IMG/VR virus record: IMGVR_UViG_3300005253_000575
Span: 1-34,174 of that record
Strand: one strand, 5' to 3'
Length of the DNA: 34,174 nt
Origin: a virus
Each line of letters opens with the position of its first letter. Position 1 is the first letter of the stretch. Positions 1-34,174 of this stretch are shown here, in pieces. Both the position numbers and the translations under genes were made by a program. A model generated the notes under the pieces. That model had not been told where the DNA came from. It was given only the letters and a program-made list of their open reading frames with translations, and did no database searches.

Positions 1-115
1 AAAAGAAGCCGCCGAGGCCGCCCCACAAAATCCGGGGGGATTGGCCCGGGGGGGGGGTGCCCCTGGCCCGGCCCCCCCGGGGCCACTTTTTCGCCGCCCC
101 CCACAGGGCGCGGAC
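1..115. other. Corrupted contig end
   Basis: The first 72 bases align without gaps to 34103-34174, with 17 mismatches; 10 of these replace an A or T in the right-end copy by G or C. The stretch to about 115 continues as long runs of C and G unlike the rest of the window. This looks like a low-quality read or assembly end, not true sequence. Residues read from here should not be trusted. Confidence 0.8.
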
Positions 116-487: not shown

Positions 488-3463
488 GTGGGTAAACTTG
501 GCGAGATTCTCACCGACGAGTCAAAGCGACAGGAGTTCGTGAAGTCACCGTTTCCTGAACAGGTTACGTTTCTTCGCCGCGACAACCCCGACTTCGCACG
601 ACTTCCCCTCGACAAGCAGATCAAGGCGCTGCGAGAGATCAACCGCATTGAGGAGCGTGTTCGCCCCGCGCGTGAACTGATTGCACCTGCCGCTGCACGC
701 ACTGCCGAACGCTTGCAGGCAATCAAGCTGGAGGAGCGGCGTGGACCACTTCCCATCGAACGCCAGGAAGCCAAGAGGCAGCTTGAGCAGTTCCAGCGTA
801 TCGTCACCATTCCGGCTCCAATCGTCGGTGGCTTCCTAGAGTTTCTTGCGAAACCGCTAGCGGCAACCGCCGCACTAAAACGGCGAGCCGATGCAGTCCG
901 CCAGGCGTTCGATACGATATTCCCTGGCGATCCGAAGTCCAGGTCAGTCTTTAAGAATATGCTGAGTTTCATGGCAAAAGAAGTTCCGAAAGAATACTTG
1001 GCACTGAACATCGAAACCATAACATCCATCGCGGGCCTCATGTCGATGGCGGTTCCGGGCGCGGCGAAACCTGCTATCGCAGCGTTTGCAAAGGCAGCCA
1101 AACTCGTAAAAGTCGGCAAGCGAAAGTCAGCGACCCGTGCGTTGCGGGTAGGCGTAGCGCAAGGCGTAAAGGCGTTGGGGCAGCTTGCTGCTGGCGTGGG
1201 AGAAGTAGCGACAGGCATACAGCCGTTTCGAGCGGTACGTGCGTTGCCCACCGTGGCTGAAGTGGCGGTGCTTCCTGCCGTGCGTGCGGGTGCGCGCGCT
1301 GTTGCTGTGGGTGTTACCAGAGGCGTAGCCGCTGCCAGAGAGGTTGCGACGGGCGTTCCAGCCGCGCGGACAGTTGCCGCCGTAGAACGCGGGCTAGTAC
1401 CTCGCGGCGCTGAGCTACCAGAAGAAGTGATTGCTGCCGGGTTCCGGGGCAGGGAAATCGCAGAAGGCGGCGTGCGTCAAGCGGCGCAGTTCGTCAAGGA
1501 CGTCGAGGCGCGGCAAGTCAACATATTCGAGCGGGTGAGCGCTGGCGAGTTGATTGACAATGGCATAGTAAAGCAGCAGCCAGTCATTAGCAGGCTGGTT
1601 GCCGGTGGCGACGAGGGAGCGAAACTGGCAGTCGAGATCGCAAAGACTAACAACAAACTCGCGTCAGAGCTGATGCGCAAGGGTTTCCCACGGCAGATAT
1701 TCGAGCGTTTCCGTGGGCGGTATGTGGGAGCCCCTTACCTGGCGGATTCGGTGCCTACGGCAAACTTGCGTGAGCTTACGCTGGGCGTGGACGAAATGCT
1801 TCAGGAGGGCGTGCAAAGCCTCAAGCGTTCCCGTCCGTTCGTCACGCGTCCGCAAGCTGCACAGCGTTTCCTGCGGCGCAAGAACGCAGTGCCGAAAGGC
1901 ACTGATGTCGTTCCGCGTCAAGTGCGCACGATCATCCAGGAGAACAACCTGAAAGGCTTCGCTGAGTTGCAGAACGGTATCCTTGCCCAGCCGGGACTCG
2001 TATCAAACGTTGCAGGGCCTGGATTGAGACGCATCTCTCCTGAAGCCGCTGTTGTTTCTCGCCTCAGGGGCAAGTTCGTTCCTGAGCGGGTAGCTGACGA
2101 ACTGCTATCGTTTCAGCGCGACGTTAATTTCATGTCGAGCCCTGGCGCGATAAAAAAGGTGATCTCGCTCTACAAGGAAACGCTGACGGTTGATAATCCG
2201 TTGACGTGGATGGGCAACATCCTGGGCAACACCATGATCGCCAGTGTCAACCGCGTTGGTTCTCCCCTGACGCGTCCAGCGTTCTTTGCAGAGACTGCGC
2301 GGCAGTTCGTTAAGGGATCGCCAGACTTTGACCGGGCCACAGTTGCGGGCGTGTTCGCTTCCGGGCAGACGGCGAGAACGGTGGAAGGTGAACTGGTGCG
2401 CGACATCATGAAGACAGCGGCGGCAGAAGCGAAAGGCAGCGATCTAGGCTTGCTGTTCAACCTGGGCGCGTCCTACCGCAAGCTGCGTCCTTTCGCGCCA
2501 CAACAACTACTGCGCAGGTTCTATCAGTCACAAGACGATTTTTTCCGCTTCCTTGGCTTCCGTGAGCTGACAAAGCGAGGCATACCCGATCCACAGGCTG
2601 CTGTTCAGGCGCGCACGATGTTCGGGGATTTGAACCGTACGCCGCGAGTGGTGCGCAGTGTATCGTCCAGCCCCTTTCTCATCATGCCGTTCGTGTCCTG
2701 GCAGTACGCTATTCTGCCGCAGTTGGCGCAGTCGTTCATCAAGAATCCTATGGCAGCGGTGCGGTGGAAGCATGGACTGAACTCGTGGAACAAGGTTACT
2801 GCCTTGGCTATGGGTGAAGACCCGTCAGTGGTGGATAGGTACAACGAGTTCCGTGCGCTGGCGCAGACGCCAGGAGCAGAGCGGCAGTTCACGCTGAACC
2901 ATCCGATGATGCTGCTGCCGATGCGAGATGCGCACGGGCAACAGCTTGGTATTGACCTGACGAGTTTCAACCCATACGGCAGCGCGTTGACCGGTGGGCA
3001 GCTTGCGCTTGGTCCAGTTCTTTCCACGCTGTTCTCTGCCGTCACCGGGCGGGAGATCATACAGGAGAAGGTGGGCGGTACGATTGGGAAGGATCAGCTC
3101 GCCATTGAGATCGCGCGGCGTGCCAACATCCCACCGCGAACGGTGCGGCAGATATTCAAGGCTGGTTTACTCAAGTCTGCAAAGTGGGAGAATGGCAGAC
3201 CGGCGAACCGTGCGGCGGAGATACTGACGAAGACGTTCAGGACGTTTGAGATTGCGCCGTCTCCGATATCTGGTCCAGCGTTGAGCGCAGAGGAAGAACT
3301 GAGCAGAGCGTTTGGGCCAAGATTGGTGCGGCTTGATGTTCCCCGTGCTGCCCAGCGTGCAGCGTTTGAGACACGGCGCAGGAAACTGGAGATAGAAGAA
3401 GCGGCCAAAAAAGCGCCTGAACGCTTGGTAATACGGGAGCTTGAACAGGGGGTTGAACAGTAA
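488..3463 (+). CDS. Large internal virion / ejection-type protein (991 aa)
   Basis: This is the largest gene in the window. It probably encodes a virion-internal protein released with the DNA into the host at infection. It begins at a GTG six bases after the upstream stop, with only a weak ribosome-binding site, which suggests translational coupling. The N-terminal ~110 residues are charged and helical, residues ~170-300 are Ala/Val-rich with amphipathic or membrane-like stretches, and the C-terminal half holds hydrophobic segments such as NPLTWMGNILGNT and SPFLIMPFVSWQYAILPQL. That hydrophobic second half resembles the poorly described large proteins often placed after the tail genes in podoviruses. 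No lysozyme or transglycosylase motif was seen. The role is inferred from size, position and composition. It lies between the junction gene and a set of small beta-rich virion proteins. Confidence 0.7.
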   Translation: MGKLGEILTDESKRQEFVKSPFPEQVTFLRRDNPDFARLPLDKQIKALREINRIEERVRPARELIAPAAARTAERLQAIKLEERRGPLPIERQEAKRQLEQFQRIVTIPAPIVGGFLEFLAKPLAATAALKRRADAVRQAFDTIFPGDPKSRSVFKNMLSFMAKEVPKEYLALNIETITSIAGLMSMAVPGAAKPAIAAFAKAAKLVKVGKRKSATRALRVGVAQGVKALGQLAAGVGEVATGIQPFRAVRALPTVAEVAVLPAVRAGARAVAVGVTRGVAAAREVATGVPAARTVAAVERGLVPRGAELPEEVIAAGFRGREIAEGGVRQAAQFVKDVEARQVNIFERVSAGELIDNGIVKQQPVISRLVAGGDEGAKLAVEIAKTNNKLASELMRKGFPRQIFERFRGRYVGAPYLADSVPTANLRELTLGVDEMLQEGVQSLKRSRPFVTRPQAAQRFLRRKNAVPKGTDVVPRQVRTIIQENNLKGFAELQNGILAQPGLVSNVAGPGLRRISPEAAVVSRLRGKFVPERVADELLSFQRDVNFMSSPGAIKKVISLYKETLTVDNPLTWMGNILGNTMIASVNRVGSPLTRPAFFAETARQFVKGSPDFDRATVAGVFASGQTARTVEGELVRDIMKTAAAEAKGSDLGLLFNLGASYRKLRPFAPQQLLRRFYQSQDDFFRFLGFRELTKRGIPDPQAAVQARTMFGDLNRTPRVVRSVSSSPFLIMPFVSWQYAILPQLAQSFIKNPMAAVRWKHGLNSWNKVTALAMGEDPSVVDRYNEFRALAQTPGAERQFTLNHPMMLLPMRDAHGQQLGIDLTSFNPYGSALTGGQLALGPVLSTLFSAVTGREIIQEKVGGTIGKDQLAIEIARRANIPPRTVRQIFKAGLLKSAKWENGRPANRAAEILTKTFRTFEIAPSPISGPALSAEEELSRAFGPRLVRLDVPRAAQRAAFETRRRKLEIEEAAKKAPERLVIRELEQGVEQ

Positions 3464-6975: not shown

Positions 6976-7320
6976 TCAGTGAACTTCCTCTGGTTTCTGC
7001 GGGGCACCGATCCAACGCGTCTCTAACGTCCACTTAGGTATTTTCTTTCGCGGGCGGTGCCATACGTGGTGACAGAACTGCCCACCTGATGCTAGCCAGT
7101 CTTTGATGATGGGATGCTCAGCGTTTAGGTGATCGTGTACCTTGCGGGCGTAGTAGTCGTAGGACTGTATCCACAGTATGCCGTGTCCGGGGCGAAAGGC
7201 TTCGAGATCGGCAACGCCGAAGTGGTCGTACCGCCACTGACCGCCGCGCTTACCTTCTACGGTGTTGGCCCACCAACCCTGCTTGCGCATGTGCAAAACC
7301 GAACGGTACGCGGTGGTCAT
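6976..7320 (-). CDS. PD-(D/E)XK-like small nuclease (resolvase-like)
   Basis: The 114-residue product begins with a helix (YRSVLHMRKQGW), then an HFGVADLEAF strand containing Asp38, then GILWIQSYDYYARKVHDHL, a WLASGG turn and a closing basic strand (HHVWHRPRKKIPKW). This order matches small phage and prokaryotic VRR-NUC/Holliday-resolvase-like proteins in which the E-x-K motif is reduced to a Q-containing strand (IQS here). It would act on branched or replicating DNA. The start overlaps the upstream terminase-like gene by four bases, so the two are co-translated. The family call rests on pattern only, and activity is uncertain because the second acidic residue is absent. Confidence 0.55.
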   Translation of the reverse strand: MTTAYRSVLHMRKQGWWANTVEGKRGGQWRYDHFGVADLEAFRPGHGILWIQSYDYYARKVHDHLNAEHPIIKDWLASGGQFCHHVWHRPRKKIPKWTLETRWIGAPQKPEEVH

Positions 7321-7850
7321 ACGACCGCCTCGAATTCCTGTTTTCGCAGGTCGGGAGGTAGCGTTTCACACAATCCAAGTATCTCCTCTCTCGACACCAA
7401 GCCCGCATTCCAAGTGCTTACCCGTTCCGAATACCAGTTGCCGCTCATGTGGCCGTGCGTCCAGCGGCTCCAGAAGTGATCCCGTCCGCGAGGTGTTCCG
7501 GCCATCCTCACAAAGCGGGCACGTTTCATCAGGATGCGCATAAGCACGGGATCGCAGTAGGCGGGTTCGTAGATTGCCAGGGCGTACAACGCCCCCACAT
7601 GCCGCCAGTCTGCTGTCTTTATCCCCGTGCCCAAATTAGTGCGGTATGCGTCGGTGGCGATCTTGCTCTGGAACTGGGTAGGTGCGAGGTATGCGCGGCC
7701 CAAACCGTCACAGTTAAAAGCTTGGTTTTCGAGCCAACGCCAGAGCCATGACTTCTTACCTATGCGCCGCCCAGCCGCCACGCACACGACTCGCTCAGTC
7801 CTCTCGTTCAGTCGTTTCTGCCAGGGTAGCCAATCCCATGCGGCGTTCAT
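7317..7850 (-). CDS. Short terminase-like ATPase with degenerate motifs
   Basis: The 177-residue product has the layout of a large-terminase ATPase domain: LPWQKRL at the N-terminus, a P-loop-like AAGRRIGKKS (residues 26-34), YLAPTQFQSK (54-63), a GTPRGRDHFWSRW coupling motif (118-130) and the end signature LPPDLRKQEF (164-173). The usual GK(S/T) is GKKS, and the Walker B strand reads LALAIYEP, keeping Glu but replacing the Asp. No nuclease domain follows. A normal terminase is encoded at 22603, so this is a second, reduced relative in the early/accessory operon. It overlaps both neighbours by four bases. Loss of ATP hydrolysis, or a role unlike packaging, is inferred. It could also be a decaying remnant, although the frame is intact and coupled. 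Confidence 0.65.
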   Translation of the reverse strand: MNAAWDWLPWQKRLNERTERVVCVAAGRRIGKKSWLWRWLENQAFNCDGLGRAYLAPTQFQSKIATDAYRTNLGTGIKTADWRHVGALYALAIYEPAYCDPVLMRILMKRARFVRMAGTPRGRDHFWSRWTHGHMSGNWYSERVSTWNAGLVSREEILGLCETLPPDLRKQEFEAVV

Positions 7851-8116
7851 ACGCGCCCCAGAAGGGTTGTGTATCGGACGATGATGTGGACACCGTAAAT
7901 CTCGCCCGCCATAATACCAAACGGTGAGTCGATAGGCGACGGCAAGCAGTGATCTGGCGGTGGCCCAAAGATGTCGCCCGCCTCTTCAAAGCTGGCCAGC
8001 ATATATCGTCCCTTCACTGGCGCGTCGCTTTCGTCCCACTTTCTGAGTTGCGCCAAGACTCGTACCGCAAGTGCTTTCACGTCGGGACGGTTCCACCATT
8101 CAATGGCGCTATTCAT
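7847..8116 (-). CDS. Hypothetical 89-aa protein
   Basis: The gene is joined to its neighbours by four-base ATGA overlaps on both sides. The product starts with a helical part (WWNRPDVKALAVRVLAQLRK), then a loop with GDIFGPPPDHCLPSP and a beta-rich end (GEIYGVHIIVRYTTL). No motif, signal peptide or membrane span is recognised. It is always co-expressed with the HNH nuclease upstream and the terminase-like gene downstream, so a role with nucleic acid is plausible but unproven. Confidence 0.55.
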   Translation of the reverse strand: MNSAIEWWNRPDVKALAVRVLAQLRKWDESDAPVKGRYMLASFEEAGDIFGPPPDHCLPSPIDSPFGIMAGEIYGVHIIVRYTTLLGRV

Positions 8117-8517
8117 CGTCTGTGTATCCTCTCATGGCACTCGGTTGCGTACGGTTTGCAGTTGGCGAGGACGAAGATTTCACTAGGCTCACTACTCCGT
8201 TTCGTGTCGTGGTGGATGTGGAGGTTTTCCACTTCCCACATGTGTCCGTCTGCGTCGGGTTTGTCGCGGAGTCGAAGCCAGCCCGAATGTGGCTCCTGTC
8301 CCACTGCTTGTAGGGCGACACAGTGCGGGCATGCACACTGAATCTTCACGGCCATGTTGGTTTGCTCAAGATACATCACCGTCTTTATCCACAGCCACGG
8401 GTAGACCAGTTGGAGCTTAAAAGCTTCCCAGTCGAAACCCTTGTTGCCCACCTTTCTCAACCAGCTACGACGTTTTGTGCGGGGCGGGGGTTTGGGATTC
8501 GGACCGTTGAACTGCAT
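8113..8517 (-). CDS. HNH-type endonuclease
   Basis: I chose the ATG at 8517, which follows an AGGAGG five bases upstream; a GTG at 8520 is an alternative. The product has a zinc-binding pair (CACPHC, residues 61-66), the HNH core VENLHIHHDT (residues 97-105), a linker of about 20 residues with LANCKPY, and the closing CHERIHRR. This matches phage HNH nucleases with a Cys-bound zinc. It may be a packaging-associated nicking enzyme, a free-standing homing enzyme or a host-DNA nuclease. It sits away from the terminase at 22603 but two genes upstream of the terminase-like ATPase, in the order of transcription. Confidence 0.75.
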   Translation of the reverse strand: MQFNGPNPKPPPRTKRRSWLRKVGNKGFDWEAFKLQLVYPWLWIKTVMYLEQTNMAVKIQCACPHCVALQAVGQEPHSGWLRLRDKPDADGHMWEVENLHIHHDTKRSSEPSEIFVLANCKPYATECHERIHRR

Positions 8518-8840
8518 CACATCCTCCTGTTGGGCTTGTTCGCCCAGCGTATGTCGTTTCTACGTTCCGTGCGGTCGTGTGCCTTTCTCAGTAGACGTGC
8601 AGCCCGCTGTAGAGACAGGTGCGCTTGAGACAGGCCCGTATCAAGTTCGCCACGCAGCTTCCACATCCGGCATTTCAATAGCGTGGGTGTAGCGGTGGGC
8701 CATCGTTCCACCAAGCGGTCGTACTCGCACCCCCACACATAGTCGTAGTGCGCTTGAGCTTTGGCGTGGATGTCCACGATCTTGGTTTCAAGCTGCTCGG
8801 CTTTGGTGTGGGCGTAGTCCCAAGCATCCAGCCTATCCAC
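8517..8840 (-). CDS. Hypothetical 107-aa helical protein
   Basis: It starts at a GTG at 8840 and overlaps the end of the preceding DUF7666-like gene by eight bases. Its stop overlaps the HNH start. The product is mostly alpha-helical and rich in Arg, Trp and Leu, with DAWDYAHTKAEQLETKI and LQRAARLLRKAHDRTERR. No cysteine motif or membrane span is present. Position inside a coupled nuclease operon suggests a nucleic-acid or assembly partner role, with no family match. Confidence 0.55.
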   Translation of the reverse strand: MDRLDAWDYAHTKAEQLETKIVDIHAKAQAHYDYVWGCEYDRLVERWPTATPTLLKCRMWKLRGELDTGLSQAHLSLQRAARLLRKAHDRTERRNDIRWANKPNRRM

Positions 8841-9489
8841 GCTGCGTTTTCCTAGCGCGGCTTACCAGACGCAACAGGTGCTTCTGCTGCCACTTTCTTT
8901 CCGCATCCCACGCCGCAGCCCTCGCCGCAGCCCACGCCGCATCCCTCGCCGCATCCCACGCCGCAGCCCTCGCCGCAGCCCTCGCCGCATCCCTCGCCGC
9001 AGCCCTCGCCGCATCCCTCGCCGCATCCCACGCCGCAGCCCTCGCCGCAGCCCTCGCCGCATCCCTCGCCGCATCCCACGCCGCAGCCAATTCCTCGTCC
9101 GTCGCCTTTCCGTTTATCCATTTCCGTTTCACTTCGATAGCTTTCCAGCAACGTGCATCGGGTTCGCGGCCCGCCTTGCGCTCGCGTTTCAGCGCTCGCT
9201 CGGCGCAATCACAAGCAAACGTATGCAGTTGCTTCTCGATGTCTACAGCCCACAGCACTTTACGCTTACGTCCAATCATCTTGTCGTCCTGGTGTTGCAG
9301 ATCGCCTGATATCTCAACGCGGCAAAGCACACTTCCAGGCGCGTACTCTAGGGCATCTAGAAGCTCTTTGCTTGCGTGGAGTCCAGACGCACATATCTTC
9401 AGTTCTCCGGTATGCTCGTATGTCTTTCCGACTACGAGGTCTCGGCAGTCTCGAAGTTTCCAGCCTTTGCAGAAGTGCCACGCTTTCAT
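8833..9489 (-). CDS. DUF7666-like protein with alanine-rich repeat tail
   Basis: The first ~85 residues ([45 protein letters not shown], then [16 protein letters not shown]) match the small domain named DUF7666, common in phages and of unknown function. A charged linker follows. From about residue 134 to 200 the protein is a run of four-residue units such as AARD, AARA and AAWD, encoded by 12-base DNA repeats. The tail predicts a very long alanine/arginine helix. It ends in a basic [12 protein letters not shown]. The length of such tails varies between phages by repeat slippage, which I infer applies here. Start and stop are coupled to both neighbours. Confidence 0.7.
8901..9088. repeat. 12-base tandem repeats encoding the alanine-rich tail
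   Basis: About fifteen 12-base units alternate between GCCGCAGCCCTC-like and GCCGCATCCCAC-like forms on the plus strand, with only a few variable positions. All units are a multiple of three bases, so the reading frame of the minus-strand gene is kept. Long open frames in the other frames here are by-products of the repeat. Confidence 0.85.
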
Positions 9490-10052
9490 GACGCCTTCTC
9501 AGGGAACTTCTCACGCTCTGCGATGTCTGCCAGTGCGAGTATCACTTCTCTGTCGGGTCCGGTGGCGGGCATACCCAACCCCATACGTGCAGCGCCAACT
9601 TTCTGGTTGCAGACGAGTTCAATCCAGCACTTCACTGCCAAGCCCATTGCGATGTTACGGTTTCTGTCGCCGCTGATGGGTGCTGAACCGTTGCCGGACT
9701 TCGTTGCTGCTGGTTGTTCCGTGGGTTGCGGCGGAATCTCGGGGAATACCGGATCACCAGCAATCTTGATGGCATTTACGATGTTGGTGAACTTCTTTCC
9801 CGCCTCCCGCCCCGGTGAAACGGTGACTTGGAACGCATACGTCGCTCCTGCACCGAGTTTCACTGTACTCATGCGCCCAAAACAGGTGAACAGCTTGCCA
9901 AAGTCGGCTTCTTTCTCACAACTGGACAGATATACCTTGCGTTTCAGTTTCCACGGCGAGGTGGCGTCGGCAAACTTGTTCTCTTCCCACTCCGGTACGA
10001 CTTTCTCTACGGTTCCCTGAACGTCAAACGTTTCTTTCTGGCTCTCAGCCAT
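9486..10052 (-). CDS. OB-fold-like candidate single-strand DNA-binding protein
   Basis: The 188-residue product starts at an ATG with ribosome-binding site AAAGGAGACACAAA. The first ~95 residues are beta-rich (VQGTVEKVVPEW, KRKVYLSS, ATYAFQVTVSPG, KFTNIVNAI), as in phage OB-fold single-strand-binding proteins. A Pro-rich linker follows, then a helical end with RNRNIAMGLAVKCWIELVC. It is downstream of and overlaps the RecB/Cas4-like nuclease, a pairing typical of phage replication-recombination modules. The family call is by fold impression and context, not by a signature. It would protect or present single-stranded phage DNA. Confidence 0.55.
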   Translation of the reverse strand: MAESQKETFDVQGTVEKVVPEWEENKFADATSPWKLKRKVYLSSCEKEADFGKLFTCFGRMSTVKLGAGATYAFQVTVSPGREAGKKFTNIVNAIKIAGDPVFPEIPPQPTEQPAATKSGNGSAPISGDRNRNIAMGLAVKCWIELVCNQKVGAARMGLGMPATGPDREVILALADIAEREKFPEKAS

Positions 10053-10941
10053 TTTGTGTCTCCTTTGCTGCCGCTTTCGGCAATGTGAGATTGAACTTCC
10101 CGTGAGTCTTCCACCACGCAGCGATACGAGGACACGCGTGAATCACTCCACAGTAGGCTGGGCTACAAAGTCCAGCCGGTGCCATCTCTCCTGCGGCGCA
10201 ACGCCTTGCCTTGACGTGCTTGTTGTCACTGCGCGCTGCGATCATCGGTGTTTCCGGTGGTAGTGTGCCGTTGTCCTGGTATTGCGCCCAATGCTTGTCA
10301 GCTTCACGCAGATCGGTGATCGCTTTCTTGATGTACAGTTCTTTGTCGTACTCGTCGGTGTGTGGGTTGCCATATTCTTTGTCGATGACGAATATCGCTA
10401 CCTTGTCCACCTTCACCGGTTCGCGCTGGGTAACACACTCGTCTGTTTTGTCGTCGCCCACTGAACCCGGTGCGGTGAGTGTGTAGCCGTTCGTTTCGAT
10501 GCCGTGTGCGTACAGAGCGTTCTGCATACGGTAGCCCTCGCTTCCCCTGCGGGTGAGGAAGCCGAACGACTGACCGTTCGCTGACTTCGCATCTACGCAT
10601 ATCACCGTTTCGTCGTCGCGGAAGATGAGAAAGTCGAAATGCCCACGTAGCTTGAACTCTGGCAGGTAGATTTCCCCTTGCCTGACGACATCGTGCGCCT
10701 GGAACGCTTTGCCAACGATCTTCTCGATCATCTTGCCATGCTCCCGCGTCATCATGGAGTTGAGCGGTACGGGCAGTTGTGGTGTGCCAGCGCGGCGCAA
10801 GACACGCTTACGGAAGCAGTAGTCGGACTCGGAAGCCCACCACTCGTCTTTGTTCGGGCGCGGTGCCTGAACGACTGACAGATATTTGCTCAGTGTCTCG
10901 GTAAAGAACTGGTGAAGATCGCTCCCTTCCGGCGTACTCAT
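10045..10941 (-). CDS. RecB/Cas4-like PD-(D/E)XK exonuclease
   Basis: I chose the ATG at 10941, which overlaps the upstream stop (ATGA) and follows an AGGTGA; upstream in-frame codons would overrun the previous gene. The 298-residue product has SESDYCFRKRVLRR (Cys42), a REHGKMIEKIVG helix, the nuclease core GHFDFLIF (Asp103) and TVICVDAKS (Asp117, Lys119), a RMQNALYAHG helix, and C-terminal cysteines at about 248, 259, 264 and 270. The Cys set suggests an iron-sulfur cluster as in Cas4/AddB relatives. The expected role is 5' or 3' resection of phage or host DNA, with the next gene supplying a single-strand-binding partner. Asp instead of Glu in the ExK position is a tolerated variant. Confidence 0.8.
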   Translation of the reverse strand: MSTPEGSDLHQFFTETLSKYLSVVQAPRPNKDEWWASESDYCFRKRVLRRAGTPQLPVPLNSMMTREHGKMIEKIVGKAFQAHDVVRQGEIYLPEFKLRGHFDFLIFRDDETVICVDAKSANGQSFGFLTRRGSEGYRMQNALYAHGIETNGYTLTAPGSVGDDKTDECVTQREPVKVDKVAIFVIDKEYGNPHTDEYDKELYIKKAITDLREADKHWAQYQDNGTLPPETPMIAARSDNKHVKARRCAAGEMAPAGLCSPAYCGVIHACPRIAAWWKTHGKFNLTLPKAAAKETQNG

Positions 10942-11138
10942 GCCTTCACCTCTAGGCGCTCCAGCTTCAAGCGCCACACTTTCTTGTCGTGCGCTCTGCT
11001 CTCGTCCCATGTCGCTATTACGTCGTGCCGCAGGTGATCGTCCAGCATTTCAAGCGCTGAAGCATGGACTACCTCGGATGTACCCGTAACGTGGACCTCG
11101 GTGATCCACTTGCCGCGTGTGCACTTGCGCTTCTTCAT
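10938..11138 (-). CDS. Hypothetical 66-aa basic protein
   Basis: The gene is bounded by ATGA overlaps on both sides, the usual join in this operon. The product begins MKKRKCTRGKW and has VTEVHV-like beta strands, then a helix and a VWRLKLERLEVKA strand. It is small and basic at its N-terminus with no recognised family. Co-translation with the RecB-like nuclease suggests a link to DNA processing. Confidence 0.55.
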   Translation of the reverse strand: MKKRKCTRGKWITEVHVTGTSEVVHASALEMLDDHLRHDVIATWDESRAHDKKVWRLKLERLEVKA

Positions 11139-12229: not shown

Positions 12230-12337
12230 CACGGGTGACGGTAGGTGCTTGGGCCTGTCGTTGATCTGAATACTAGTTCAGGTCGGGGCGAGTGCCACAT
12301 TCACTCGTTCCACCTGAAGCCTAATGTGGAGGCTGAT

Positions 12338-12805
12338 ATGTGGTACGTCTATGAACTGTCCGATCCTCGTAACGACGAAATTAGGTATGTTGGCGCAACG
12401 AATAATCCGACCGGACGATTAAAGAAGCACGAACGGAGCCGCGTCAAAACGACAGGGGCTTGGTGCGCTAGGCTCAGGCTAGAATCAACAGTGCCCAAGA
12501 TGACGATTATTCAGACGGGCGAGAAGCTTGAGATGCTCAGGTATGAAGCCGCCCACAGAAGAAAACTCAAAGACGAGAGAAATACCATACTAGAGTGCGG
12601 CTACCCAGAGCAGAGCAAAGATAAACACTTCTGTGATGTCTCCCCAGCGGAACCGCTAGAAAAGCGGCTGATCGACGCGGCGATATACCTGGGGTGCAAT
12701 CCGAAAAACCTATCAGAGTGGGGCGTAAGGTTCGGGGGCTGCTACGCATGCGAAAAAGCGGTGGCCCATCTCCTCGTCGAAGTGGCGCGGCACCATGCAG
12801 AGTGA
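12338..12805 (+). CDS. GIY-YIG nuclease
   Basis: I chose the ATG at 12338, which follows GGAGG seven bases upstream and begins exactly at the domain (MWYVYELSDP); the frame is open further upstream but lacks a good start. The domain shows YVYEL (the GIY strand), IRYVGAT (the YIG strand) at residues 16-21, Arg27 with LKKH, and a candidate metal-binding Glu70 in LRYEAAHRRKL. The remaining ~80 residues are unlike known partners and contain GGCYACEKAVAHLL near the end. Such phage enzymes may be homing, host-degrading or repair nucleases. It leads the rightward operon and overlaps the next gene by 11 bases. Confidence 0.75.
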   Translation: MWYVYELSDPRNDEIRYVGATNNPTGRLKKHERSRVKTTGAWCARLRLESTVPKMTIIQTGEKLEMLRYEAAHRRKLKDERNTILECGYPEQSKDKHFCDVSPAEPLEKRLIDAAIYLGCNPKNLSEWGVRFGGCYACEKAVAHLLVEVARHHAE

Positions 12806-17783: not shown

Positions 17784-17982
17784 CCGGGGGAGATGGATGC
17801 GGAGATGCAGAGTGAAAGACGGGAATTGGGAACATGCTCTCAATAGGGCGTGGCGTGCCGTACTCGAAGCTTTGATGGGCGAGACCGAGTACGACGGTGC
17901 AAGTGAAAACTGGCGCGTGACAGTAGAGCAGTGGATACCCGCCAAATCGGTGAAGGGGGTGACAGATGGGACCAAAGAGTAA
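17773..17982 (+). CDS. Tandem paralogue 2: RGRW..QWIPAKS protein (69 aa)
   Basis: The ATG at 17773 lies in the junction ATGCCAAGTAA, a variant of the repeated start/stop overlap. The product shares SNRGRW at its start and ENWRVTVEQWIPAKSVKG at its end with the preceding gene, around a helix (EHALNRAWRAVLEALMG). It overlaps the next gene by 17 bases. Function unknown, as for its paralogue. It is slightly shorter because the central part lacks the GGKKTVWRKG segment of copy 1. Confidence 0.6.
   Translation: MPSNRGRWMRRCRVKDGNWEHALNRAWRAVLEALMGETEYDGASENWRVTVEQWIPAKSVKGVTDGTKE
17929..17958 (+). repeat. Direct repeat, copy 2 (30 bases)
   Basis: This is the second copy of the repeat at 17736-17765, with one substitution near its end (C to T). 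Confidence 0.85.
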
Positions 17983-18688
17983 GATTCCATGGACCGAGGC
18001 AAGCTGGAATCCTGTAACGGGCTGCACTCCAATCAGCGCGGGATGCCTGCATTGCTACGCTCAGGCGATATTGCATCGGTGGAAGCGATCACAGAAAATT
18101 GAGCTTCACCCATCTCGACTAGCCGAACCAATCAGGTGGAAGCGTCCGCGTAAGGTGTTCGTGTGCAGCATGAGCGACCTATTCCATGAGAAAGTGCCTC
18201 TGTCGTTTATTGTGGACGTATACAAAACCATAAGCGCAACACCGCGTCACACCTACCAGATATTAACCAAGCGTCCAGAGAGGATGTGCGACATCTGGAC
18301 ATATCCCTTCCCATTGTCGAATGTCTGGTATGGCGTAACGGTTGAAAACCAAGCAGAGCGGTGGCGCATTGCTCATTTGAGAAGCATTCCATGGGCACCC
18401 GGTGCGATTCGCTTTTTGTCATGTGAGCCGTTGCTGGGGCCGCTAGACCTGCACCTTGTCAAAGGTGGGATTCAATGGGTTATCGTCGGCGGGGAGAACG
18501 GTCCATGTGCGCGACCGATGGAGCAAGAGTGGGTGATCGACATTCGAGATCAATGCGTTAGCGCTGGCGTGCCGTTCTTCTTCAAGGGCTGGGGTCGAGG
18601 GAACCACCACCGAGAGATTGAGGGGCAGAGATGGGAGCAGATGCCAGCACAAACCCCAGCCATAGGCGCTGGGGTTGTGAGCGGTTGA
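17966..18688 (+). CDS. Gp37/Gp68 family protein (DUF5131)
   Basis: The 240-residue product is recognised from the family's ordered motifs: WTEASWNPVTGC and CLHCYA (Cys20, Cys27, Cys30) at the N-terminus, KVFVCSMSDLFHE, YQILTKRPERM, VWYGVTVENQ, IRFLSCEPLLGPL and WVIVGGENGPCARPM. The three N-terminal cysteines suggest an iron-sulfur or zinc centre, as in radical-SAM-like folds. The family is widespread in phages; its biochemical role is not established to my knowledge. It is the last gene of the rightward operon. Its final ~13 codons lie inside the terminator hairpin, and the C-terminal tail (AIGAGVVSG) may therefore be an addition shaped by the terminator. Confidence 0.85.
   Translation: MGPKSKIPWTEASWNPVTGCTPISAGCLHCYAQAILHRWKRSQKIELHPSRLAEPIRWKRPRKVFVCSMSDLFHEKVPLSFIVDVYKTISATPRHTYQILTKRPERMCDIWTYPFPLSNVWYGVTVENQAERWRIAHLRSIPWAPGAIRFLSCEPLLGPLDLHLVKGGIQWVIVGGENGPCARPMEQEWVIDIRDQCVSAGVPFFFKGWGRGNHHREIEGQRWEQMPAQTPAIGAGVVSG
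18648..18679. terminator. Bidirectional terminator hairpin at convergent junction
   Basis: CACAAACCCCAGC (18648-18660) pairs with GCTGGGGTTGTG (18668-18679) with one bulged A and a seven-base loop. It lies within the last codons of the plus-strand gene and just beyond the stop of the minus-strand gene at 18694, so it can end both transcripts. Confidence 0.75.
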
Positions 18689-22018: not shown

Positions 22019-22602
22019 TCGTGGCCTGGCGCTCTACTCCGGCGCTCATCCCACACACAGCCAGACGCCAGAACTTCCTACCCGCCCCCGCGCCAAACTG
22101 CATATTAATCCTCACCTCAATGCAGTGGAGCAGGAGTGTGCGTAAGAGCGTAGCGGTCCTCAACCGATTGCACTTACGCGGCTCTGTCTGCTGGTGTATT
22201 TTCCCATCCCCGTTTCCCACATGTGGATAGAGACAGTAAGCAGAGCAGGCAAGCCTTACCGGTATTGGCGCAAGGTTGTAGGCGAATCCCCTCAGCCGCC
22301 CGCGAGTACACACGGGCCTGAGAGCTTGATCGGTGCGCAGGGGCATACCCCCCCTGGGACCCTAGAACCCGCTTTGGCGACACAGGCGGATATAAGAGAA
22401 TCTACCCAATTACTCTCAGAGAGGATGACCAGAACGGCCCCACGGGATGGCTCATCGGAGGAGGGGGGTATGCGGCGGGAAAAGGGAGAGCTGTTGAAGC
22501 TGGTGAAAAAGGGGAGGCTGGAGGGGGAGGCAGTGATCGCCGCTGCACCGGGGAAAAAAGAGGGGGTTGGGAGCAACGTGCATTTGAAGGGGGTGGGAAG
22601 AC
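22019..22602 (+). other. Poorly explained stretch before the terminase gene
   Basis: No gene can be called with confidence. A plus-strand frame is open from about 22194, with starts at 22221 (MWIETVSRAGKPYRYW) and at 22470 after a GAGGAGGGGGG site (MRREKGELLKLVKKG). It then runs 320 bases into the terminase gene in another frame, where it is only a shadow. This is where a small terminase would be expected, but none is recognisable. A short real gene with a sequencing shift, or a leader, is possible. Confidence 0.4.
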
Positions 22603-23988
22603 GTGCCGGAGAAAGGACATGCCGAGTTATTGATATCGCTCCTGTGGTGGCAGCAGGAAGTGCTGGCGAGCCCAGCGCGGTTCAAGGCGGTGGTGGGCGG
22701 ACGCCGAGCGGGGAAGACGCGCTTGGGGCTGATATTCGACATCACGGAACTGCTGGACCGGGAGGAGGGATCGGAAGCGTGGTTTCTGGGTCCGACCTAC
22801 CGGCAGGTGAAGATGATCGGGTGGAGGGATGTCTTGGAGCTGATCCGGCTAGCCCCCTGGCTGCTGGAGGGGAAACCGAACGTCAACGAACTGACGATCC
22901 CGATAGTGGGGAGGAGACAGCTTAGTTTCAAGGGCTGCGATCAGCCCGACTCTCTCCGTGGTCCCGGTCTGGTAGCGTTCAACTTCGACGAGTACGCATT
23001 CGTCAGGAACCGGCTGATCTGGGAGAAGATCGTGCGCCCCATGATCGCGGACAAAAAGGGGAAAGGGATGTTCCAGACAACCCCCTCCGGGCGTGAGCAC
23101 TTCTGCGAACTCTTCGAGCTGGGGAAATCCGGGGATAACCCTGATTGGGAGTCGTTTGAAATCTGGACGAAAGACGCCGGTACGGTGGATGACGATGAGC
23201 TTGCCGACATCAAGGCCACCACTCCCGCTGACTTCTACGCGCAGGAACACGAGTGCAAGTTCTTGAGTTACGAGGGTTTGGCTGTGCCCGAGTTCTCTCC
23301 CAAGAACTGGCCGGAAGGGAACATCCTGCCTATGGAGATGTTCGAGAAGATGCGCAAGCACTGCACGGTTTGGGGCGCGATTGACTGGGCAAAATCGACC
23401 GGGAAAACTGCATACCTGGAAGCGTTCATTGACCCGGAGGGAAGGGTGATTTTCACCGATGAGCTGTCCATGCCCGGTGGTGCCCCCTCGCTGGTGTGGG
23501 AAAAGATCAGCGCGCTCAACCCTGCGGAGATGGTCGTAATCGGCCACGATGCGTACGCGAAAGAATCCGAAGGCTTTTCCGTCGCGGAGCAGTTGCAGCG
23601 CGCCAGCCGGGATGATCGGGGCAGCATTCGCCTCCGCCTCGTCAAACACTACGCCAGGAAAGCGGACGCCGTATCCTTCCTCAAGCAGCAATGCCTTCCC
23701 GGTTTCGACAGCGAGGGCAACGCAAGACTGCCCAAAGTCATGGTGCTGGAGGGTCGGTGCAGAGTCTATGTGAGCCAGATGTGCAAGCTCTCGCACGCCG
23801 ATCTTGAGAAACAGGGCCATGCCAGCCAGGGCATTCGGGACTCGTTTGACGCGGGGCTATACCTCGTCATGCGGCATGTAAAAGCTCCCGCAGTCGTTTC
23901 CCAAGAAAGCGATGTAGGCAGAACGATCAAACCCCGTGACACCAGCGACGAATTCGAGTCCGTCAGCGGTTTGCCGATGGACGAGTAG
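22603..23988 (+). CDS. terL: Terminase large subunit
   Basis: The 461-residue packaging motor cuts concatemeric DNA and pumps it into the capsid. It starts at a GTG with GGGGGTGGGAAG upstream. The ATPase domain has the P-loop GGRRAGKT (32-39), FLGPTY (61-66), Walker B AFNFDE (125-130) and the coupling motif TTPSG (159-163). The RNase-H-like nuclease has acidic residues at 261 (WGAIDW), 316 (IGHDAY) and 416 (DSFDAGLY). Both domains are complete and the length is normal. It begins the late block and is followed by the portal after 19 bases. No small subunit gene is recognised next to it. A shortened, degenerate relative of its ATPase is at 7317. Confidence 0.93.
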   Translation: MPEKGHAELLISLLWWQQEVLASPARFKAVVGGRRAGKTRLGLIFDITELLDREEGSEAWFLGPTYRQVKMIGWRDVLELIRLAPWLLEGKPNVNELTIPIVGRRQLSFKGCDQPDSLRGPGLVAFNFDEYAFVRNRLIWEKIVRPMIADKKGKGMFQTTPSGREHFCELFELGKSGDNPDWESFEIWTKDAGTVDDDELADIKATTPADFYAQEHECKFLSYEGLAVPEFSPKNWPEGNILPMEMFEKMRKHCTVWGAIDWAKSTGKTAYLEAFIDPEGRVIFTDELSMPGGAPSLVWEKISALNPAEMVVIGHDAYAKESEGFSVAEQLQRASRDDRGSIRLRLVKHYARKADAVSFLKQQCLPGFDSEGNARLPKVMVLEGRCRVYVSQMCKLSHADLEKQGHASQGIRDSFDAGLYLVMRHVKAPAVVSQESDVGRTIKPRDTSDEFESVSGLPMDE

Positions 23989-33815: not shown

Positions 33816-34174
33816 ATGCCTGACGGAATACCTCGCGTTCGTGGACCGGCAATAGCCAGAGAGATCAGCCAGATACGTGCCCCCGAATCACCTGCTCGGC
33901 GTGGTGGTGCGGGTGTGCTTGAGGCGCTACGCGAGACGTTTGCGGTAGGTCCAACCGAACGGGCGATACGCGCACGGGACATCTCGGCAGAAAGAGGAAG
34001 GCGCGCTACCGAAGAAGAACGTCAGCTACCTGTCGGCGCTGGCGAATCCGCTGCTCTCGGCTTGCTGTTCCAGAGCGCGTTGACGGCGCAGAGAGTTCCG
34101 GCAGAAGAAGCTGCCGAGACTGCCCAACAGATCACGGCGGGATTGACGCGCGGGGGGGGTGCCACTGTCACGAC
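33816..34174 (+). CDS. Junction-spanning virion-region protein, 5' part
   Basis: The ATG at 33816 follows AGGGGAGATAGCC. The frame is open to the window end and continues at base 2 (last 72 bases equal the first 72 with errors), giving 255 residues in all. The N-terminal part is Arg/Ala/Glu-rich and helical (GVLEALRETFAVGPTERAIRA, ISAERGRRATEEERQL) with a short AALGLLFQSALTA stretch and a Gly-rich hinge (LTRGGGAT). It continues the ejection-type group upstream of the 991-residue protein. No family was recognised. Confidence 0.75.
   Translation, partial: MPDGIPRVRGPAIAREISQIRAPESPARRGGAGVLEALRETFAVGPTERAIRARDISAERGRRATEEERQLPVGAGESAALGLLFQSALTAQRVPAEEAAETAQQITAGLTRGGGATVT

Follow-up and report, generated by a model that had tools for sequence, protein, structure and literature searches.

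In P-loop ATPases, the Mg ion is held by the Ser or Thr that follows the P-loop Lys and by the Asp of Walker B. Alanine at the Walker A Lys or at the Walker B Glu of the HK97 terminase abolishes both ATPase activity and packaging (PMC9410871), and the same enzyme uses an additional P-loop lysine, situated before the classical Lys (PMC9410871). Many terminases also require a trans-acting arginine (PMC5727402; PMC9410871). We found no precedent for truncated, split or second terminases in the literature searched, from which subscription papers were mostly outside scope.

We analyzed a stretch of 34,174 nucleotides from a virus (IMG/VR record IMGVR_UViG_3300005253_000575, positions 1 to 34,174), referred to below as the window. 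On its minus strand, an open reading frame at 7317..7850 encodes a protein of 177 aa, which an earlier sequence-only reading had taken for a second, reduced terminase ATPase with broken nucleotide-binding motifs. The translation of this frame, a profile match and a structural model all point to homology with the ATPase domain of the large terminase (TerL), and no nuclease domain is present.

Homology and predicted fold

The product of 7317-7850 matches a profile of 90 terminase sequences with E=6.5e-24, while the best of 1000 shuffles reached E=1.4. The profile was built without the gene itself; since most of its members had been collected with the gene as bait, it is not wholly independent, and the margin is still large. 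Pfam and NCBIfam return no match, and PHROG a marginal terminase match (E=0.052), which reflects how short and divergent the protein is. In a direct search, the terminase of Methylophilales phage Venkman is 26% identical over 93% of the protein. The profile match falls into two blocks, residues 4-63 and 100-175, and the terminase order of motifs noted earlier holds: the APT motif is retained at residues 56-58 (7677..7685, minus strand; profile and alignments), as are the GTPRGR coupling motif (TPxG, or C-motif) at residues 118-123 (7482..7499, minus strand; profile and alignments) and the end of the ATPase domain, LPPDLRKQEFE, at residues 164-174 (7329..7361, minus strand; profile and model), with the stop three codons further on. 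Judged by its sequence, the protein is a homologue of the large-terminase ATPase domain.

Structure prediction supports a terminase ATPase fold. AlphaFold2, given 59 terminase ATPase domains as the alignment, produced a model with a pLDDT of 84.4 and a pTM of 0.80; a single-sequence model reached a pLDDT of 34. The best solved match of the alignment-guided model is the ATPase of the P74-26 terminase (4znl_A; Z 18.5, 2.2 A, all 177 residues), to which it aligns over residues 12-252, reaching the end of that ATPase-domain chain, and the HK97, D6E, Sf6 and T4 terminases are the other best solved matches. Chains of Gabija and of helicases such as RecD2, Hef and PriA come next (Z <=12). An unrelated fold, which would have spoken against the sequence-only reading, is not what this prediction gave. 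The input alignment consists of ordinary terminases and pulls the model toward their fold, so that the model shows the sequence to be compatible with the fold rather than proving that the protein adopts it.

Operon setting

The gene starts with ATG, contains no internal stop and overlaps each of its neighbors by ATGA (7847-7850 and 7317-7320), which agrees with the coupled start and stop read earlier. It is part of a minus-strand gene run that extends from 11010 to 6976, and in this run every start overlaps the stop of the preceding gene. Its composition is like that of the other genes of the operon (GC3 of 0.67 versus 0.61-0.68 in the neighbors), and codon usage sets its reading frame weakly apart from the other frames. 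The description of this run as a nuclease operon stands for the gene at its head, a PD-(D/E)XK / Cas4-like nuclease at 10045..11010 (minus strand) that has database matches (Pfam PF12705, E=6e-6; phrog_1706, E=1e-9; PADLOC Cas4, E=7e-4). The small HNH-like protein at 8113..8520 (minus strand; CPHC ... HIHH ... CHERIH) was recognized by eye and has no database match, and family searches gave no match for the coupled genes directly upstream (7847..8116, minus strand, 89 aa) and downstream (6976..7320, minus strand, 114 aa). Also in this run, 8833-9489 (minus strand) encodes a DUF7666 protein matched by several PHROG families of unknown function; its C-terminal part is encoded by a 12-base repeat present about 16 times (8901-9088), giving Ala-rich AARDAARA units.

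An operon shared with a Cas4-like nuclease and a by-eye HNH-like protein raises the idea of an accessory subunit, in which the 7317-7850 product would act outside packaging as a DNA- or junction-binding scaffold for these two proteins and would serve recombination or DNA degradation. The protein is basic (pI 9.7), and the helicases RecD2, Hef and PriA among its next-best structural matches would fit such a role. These helicase matches nevertheless lie well below the terminase scores, and membership of a phage operon is weak evidence. Searches with the operon neighbors for a shared gene order yielded nothing usable, leaving no operon relative in which conserved order could be compared. We regard an accessory role in the nuclease operon as unlikely.

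The run lies about 16 kb from the portal gene, and the position of a packaging gene is occupied by the phage's own complete large terminase at 22603..23988 (plus strand, 461 aa; PF03237, E=2.8e-15; phrog_2, E=1.3e-28). The motifs of this terminase, GRRAGKT and NFDE, are intact, in line with the complete terminase that had been read at this position.

Other genes of the window include 488-3463 (plus strand), encoding a 991-aa protein that has no match in Pfam, PHROGs or NCBIfam; 12245-12805 (plus strand), encoding a protein with a GIY-YIG nuclease domain (Pfam E=3.4e-7); and 17966-18688 (plus strand), encoding a DUF5131 (phrog_2045) protein of a kind common in Gordonia and Mycobacterium phages and in many uncultured viruses.

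Changes around the active site

The P-loop of the 7317-7850 product reads GRRIGKKS (residues 27-34; 7749..7772, minus strand), and the alignments place GKK where terminases carry GK[ST], as the earlier reading had it. A Lys after the P-loop GK is unique to this gene among 243 complete terminase-like ORFs (from 345 loci, 3.3 Mb; median length 423 aa). The Walker B region, LAIYE (residues 91-95; 7566..7580, minus strand), has two plausible registers in the alignments. In the one favored by the nearest relatives, Tyr94-Glu95, Tyr94 replaces the Asp and the Glu is kept; in the other, Tyr89-Ala90, the Glu is gone too. The proposed loss of the Walker B Asp thus holds in either register. The absence of a nuclease domain was likewise seen: the stop falls at the boundary of the ATPase domain, no C-terminal RNase H-like nuclease domain follows, and a search across the window for a separate nuclease half found none.

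To this description we add an internal shortening that lies after the APT motif and ahead of the coupling motif. Between the two match blocks, 36 poorly alignable residues stand for 65 positions of the profile, a net deficit of about 29 positions. The approximate site is residues 63-80 (7611..7664, minus strand), as placed by the profile, the alignment and a drop in pLDDT to 47, and the fall in the pLDDT of the model at residues 71-80 coincides with the shortening. A hidden frameshift was considered; in the middle of the gene, inspection by eye of the two alternative frames revealed no terminase-like sequence.

The losses are unevenly distributed. Aligned with the 40 terminases nearest to it, the protein retains 32 of the 55 columns conserved at >=85% in the flanks, whereas the middle retains 7 of 35 (Fisher p=4e-4), so that loss is concentrated around the catalytic center. 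Retained residues include Gln11, Arg28, Arg29, Gly31 and Lys32, together with APT, GTPRGR and the QEF end. Arg83 lies near the place expected for the trans-acting arginine (R139 of P74-26, before Walker B), in a region that is shortened and in which the alignment is uncertain.

Such a protein is unlikely to hydrolyse ATP by the terminase mechanism, because neither Mg-coordinating residue is retained and the stretch separating them is shorter; the HK97 alanine mutants support inactivity upon loss of active-site residues (PMC9410871). Could the product still be an ATPase, with Ser34, Lys33 or Glu95 making up for the lost ligands? The P-loop Lys32 is retained, as is Glu95 in the register of the nearest relatives, and HK97 terminase offers an example of reliance on an extra P-loop lysine (PMC9410871). 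That lysine, however, precedes the classical Lys instead of following it, Ser or Thr stands after GK in 217 of the 226 complete terminase-like ORFs that were scored, and here both metal-ligand positions are altered in a protein that is also shortened internally. We consider residual ATPase activity very improbable.

The assembly bears on whether part of the lesion could be an artefact or a strain-specific deletion. A contig of the same phage, L005, shares 11.4 kb with the window, outside the 7317-7850 gene. It carries about 108 bases (L005 1-140) that are absent from the window at 22574-22580, just upstream of the start of the complete terminase. This in-frame difference may reflect strain variation or an assembly error, and it shows that in-frame deletions occur in the assembly or in the population. 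Against such an origin of the lesion, a single base differs over the shared 11.4 kb, indicating high base accuracy there, the whole 6976-11010 run consists of clean coupled frames, and the lost nuclease half and altered metal ligands would require more than one deletion. An artefact or strain-specific deletion thus seems extremely improbable. The two ends of the window (1-65 and 34105-34167) resemble each other, with 79% identity across 63 bases that include long G runs; this may be an overlap, of low quality, in a genome that is circular or terminally redundant.

Relatives, possible roles and comparison with known terminases

We searched for relatives with the protein itself, with alignment-guided scans and with a scan for the pattern TPxGRxHFW. 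Among the matches listed in IMG/VR, GTDB (84,980 prokaryote genomes), INPHARED (isolate phages) and PLSDB (plasmids), none carries the same lesions; several of these scans list a limited set of matches or rely on short patterns, so a distant relative could have been missed. What the searches brought up as relatives were ordinary terminases, with identities of about 25-34%. The INPHARED matches (24-29% identity) were ordinary terminases apart from one ORF annotated as 'structural protein', the single match in PLSDB was judged to be due to chance, and the alignment-guided and pattern scans matched ordinary terminases. The sequence-only reading had looked to relatives for a conserved frame with the same lost residues: among the matches listed, there was no relative with these lesions, and none of the scattered, decayed copies that would have spoken for decay.

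Short terminase ORFs at four other loci (L222, L323, L307 and L143) were set aside, as the remainder lies in a second ORF nearby or the match continues in another frame; they are split genes or frameshifts and not equivalents of 7317-7850. In L222 (84-1348) and L323 (2883-4144), two ORFs divide the terminase between them close to the ATPase/nuclease boundary, through either a frameshift or a genuine split. A second, ATPase-only terminase copy was not seen in the whole records, many of which may be fragments, of 93 viral contigs chosen by a shared DUF5131 protein or by terminase similarity. In a tree of ATPase domains, 7317-7850 has the second-longest branch (2.3-2.8 substitutions per site) and does not pair with the phage's own terminase; its placement is unstable between two column sets.

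A decaying relic would explain much of this. A terminase copy that arrived by recombination or duplication would have shed the nuclease half together with an internal segment, and would be functionless with a frame that is as yet unbroken. The gene is an orphan among the matches listed in IMG/VR, GTDB, INPHARED and PLSDB, its branch is very long, and several unrelated lesions occur together: the shortening, two metal-ligand changes and the missing C-terminal half. Passenger genes can also persist in compact phage operons by way of coupling. A run of 177 stop-free codons with precise ATGA joints at both ends, and an uneven loss that leaves the flanking motifs well preserved, count against decay, and phages usually delete useless DNA quickly. 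We hold a relic to be a serious possibility, nearly as likely as a terminase-derived pseudo-ATPase and accounting equally well for the orphan status and the long branch.

Our preferred reading, held tentatively and at somewhat less than even odds, is that the product of 7317-7850 is made and is a pseudo-ATPase of terminase origin, which would work by binding and would not hydrolyse ATP. We infer that the gene is expressed, that its product does not hydrolyse ATP, and the functional steps that follow. The product would be a small, basic, folded protein that consists solely of a large terminase's ATPase core and its lid, from a lineage that is not demonstrably that of the phage's own terminase. 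The parts it keeps would be the nucleotide pocket (the P-loop Arg-Arg-x-Gly-Lys and the adenine-side Gln), the APT motif, the TPxG coupling motif and the lid; on a basic protein, a kept pocket, coupling motif and lid suit a binding role. Produced together with a Cas4-like nuclease from an operon with translational coupling, it would act by binding and not by catalysis, and this copy would be free of packaging duty because a complete terminase is encoded elsewhere in the genome. The most likely role for such a protein would be to cap or poison a terminase ATPase ring, either that of a competing phage or, before the late genes are switched on, that of the phage itself; alternatively, it may hold DNA or nucleotide, for example DNA for the nucleases of the operon. 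Bacterial sensors such as Avs recognise terminases. A more specific proposal, that a dedicated non-catalytic protein joins or mimics the terminase ATPase ring in order to block packaging by competitors, to delay the phage's own or to decoy sensors such as Avs, strikes us as doubtful. The intact frame, the coupling to both neighbors and the focus of loss in the catalytic middle make a new role plausible, whereas the known occurrence of the gene in a single genome and a very long branch, as expected under relaxed constraint, count against a pseudo-ATPase. Of the earlier proposal of a non-hydrolysing partner with a new role, the terminase-derived and probably non-hydrolysing part is supported by profile, alignment and model, and the new role is plausible.

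Should the protein be expressed and under selection, the phage would possess a pseudo-ATPase derived from a packaging motor and, with it, a means to control or sabotage DNA packaging; whether a terminase ring is poisoned by a catalytically dead subunit could then be tested directly. Should the gene be a relic, it would exemplify a terminase gene copy decaying within a phage genome.

Compared with known terminases, the 7317-7850 product shares with the ATPase of P74-26 (4zni/4znl) its predicted fold, the P-loop Gly-Lys, TPxG and the end point of the domain; unlike it, at 16% identity, it has no Ser or Thr after the P-loop Lys, has Tyr for the Walker B Asp and lacks residues before Walker B. Its nearest relatives in sequence come from contigs of uncultured phages (L070, L071 and L283-L288); they are full-length terminases that share about 26-34% identity with it across the ATPase region and differ from it in being ordinary, with intact motifs and a nuclease domain. 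The phage's own terminase at 22603 (PF03237, phrog_2) belongs to the same superfamily and is 36% identical over 58 residues in the C-terminal part of the ATPase; it differs in its intact motifs, its nuclease domain and its place ahead of the portal gene, and it is not the closest relative in the tree. The terminase-labelled family phrog_7579 (239 positions) is about as long as one ATPase domain; it is matched by the phage's own terminase, and the 7317-7850 product does not match it at E<=1.
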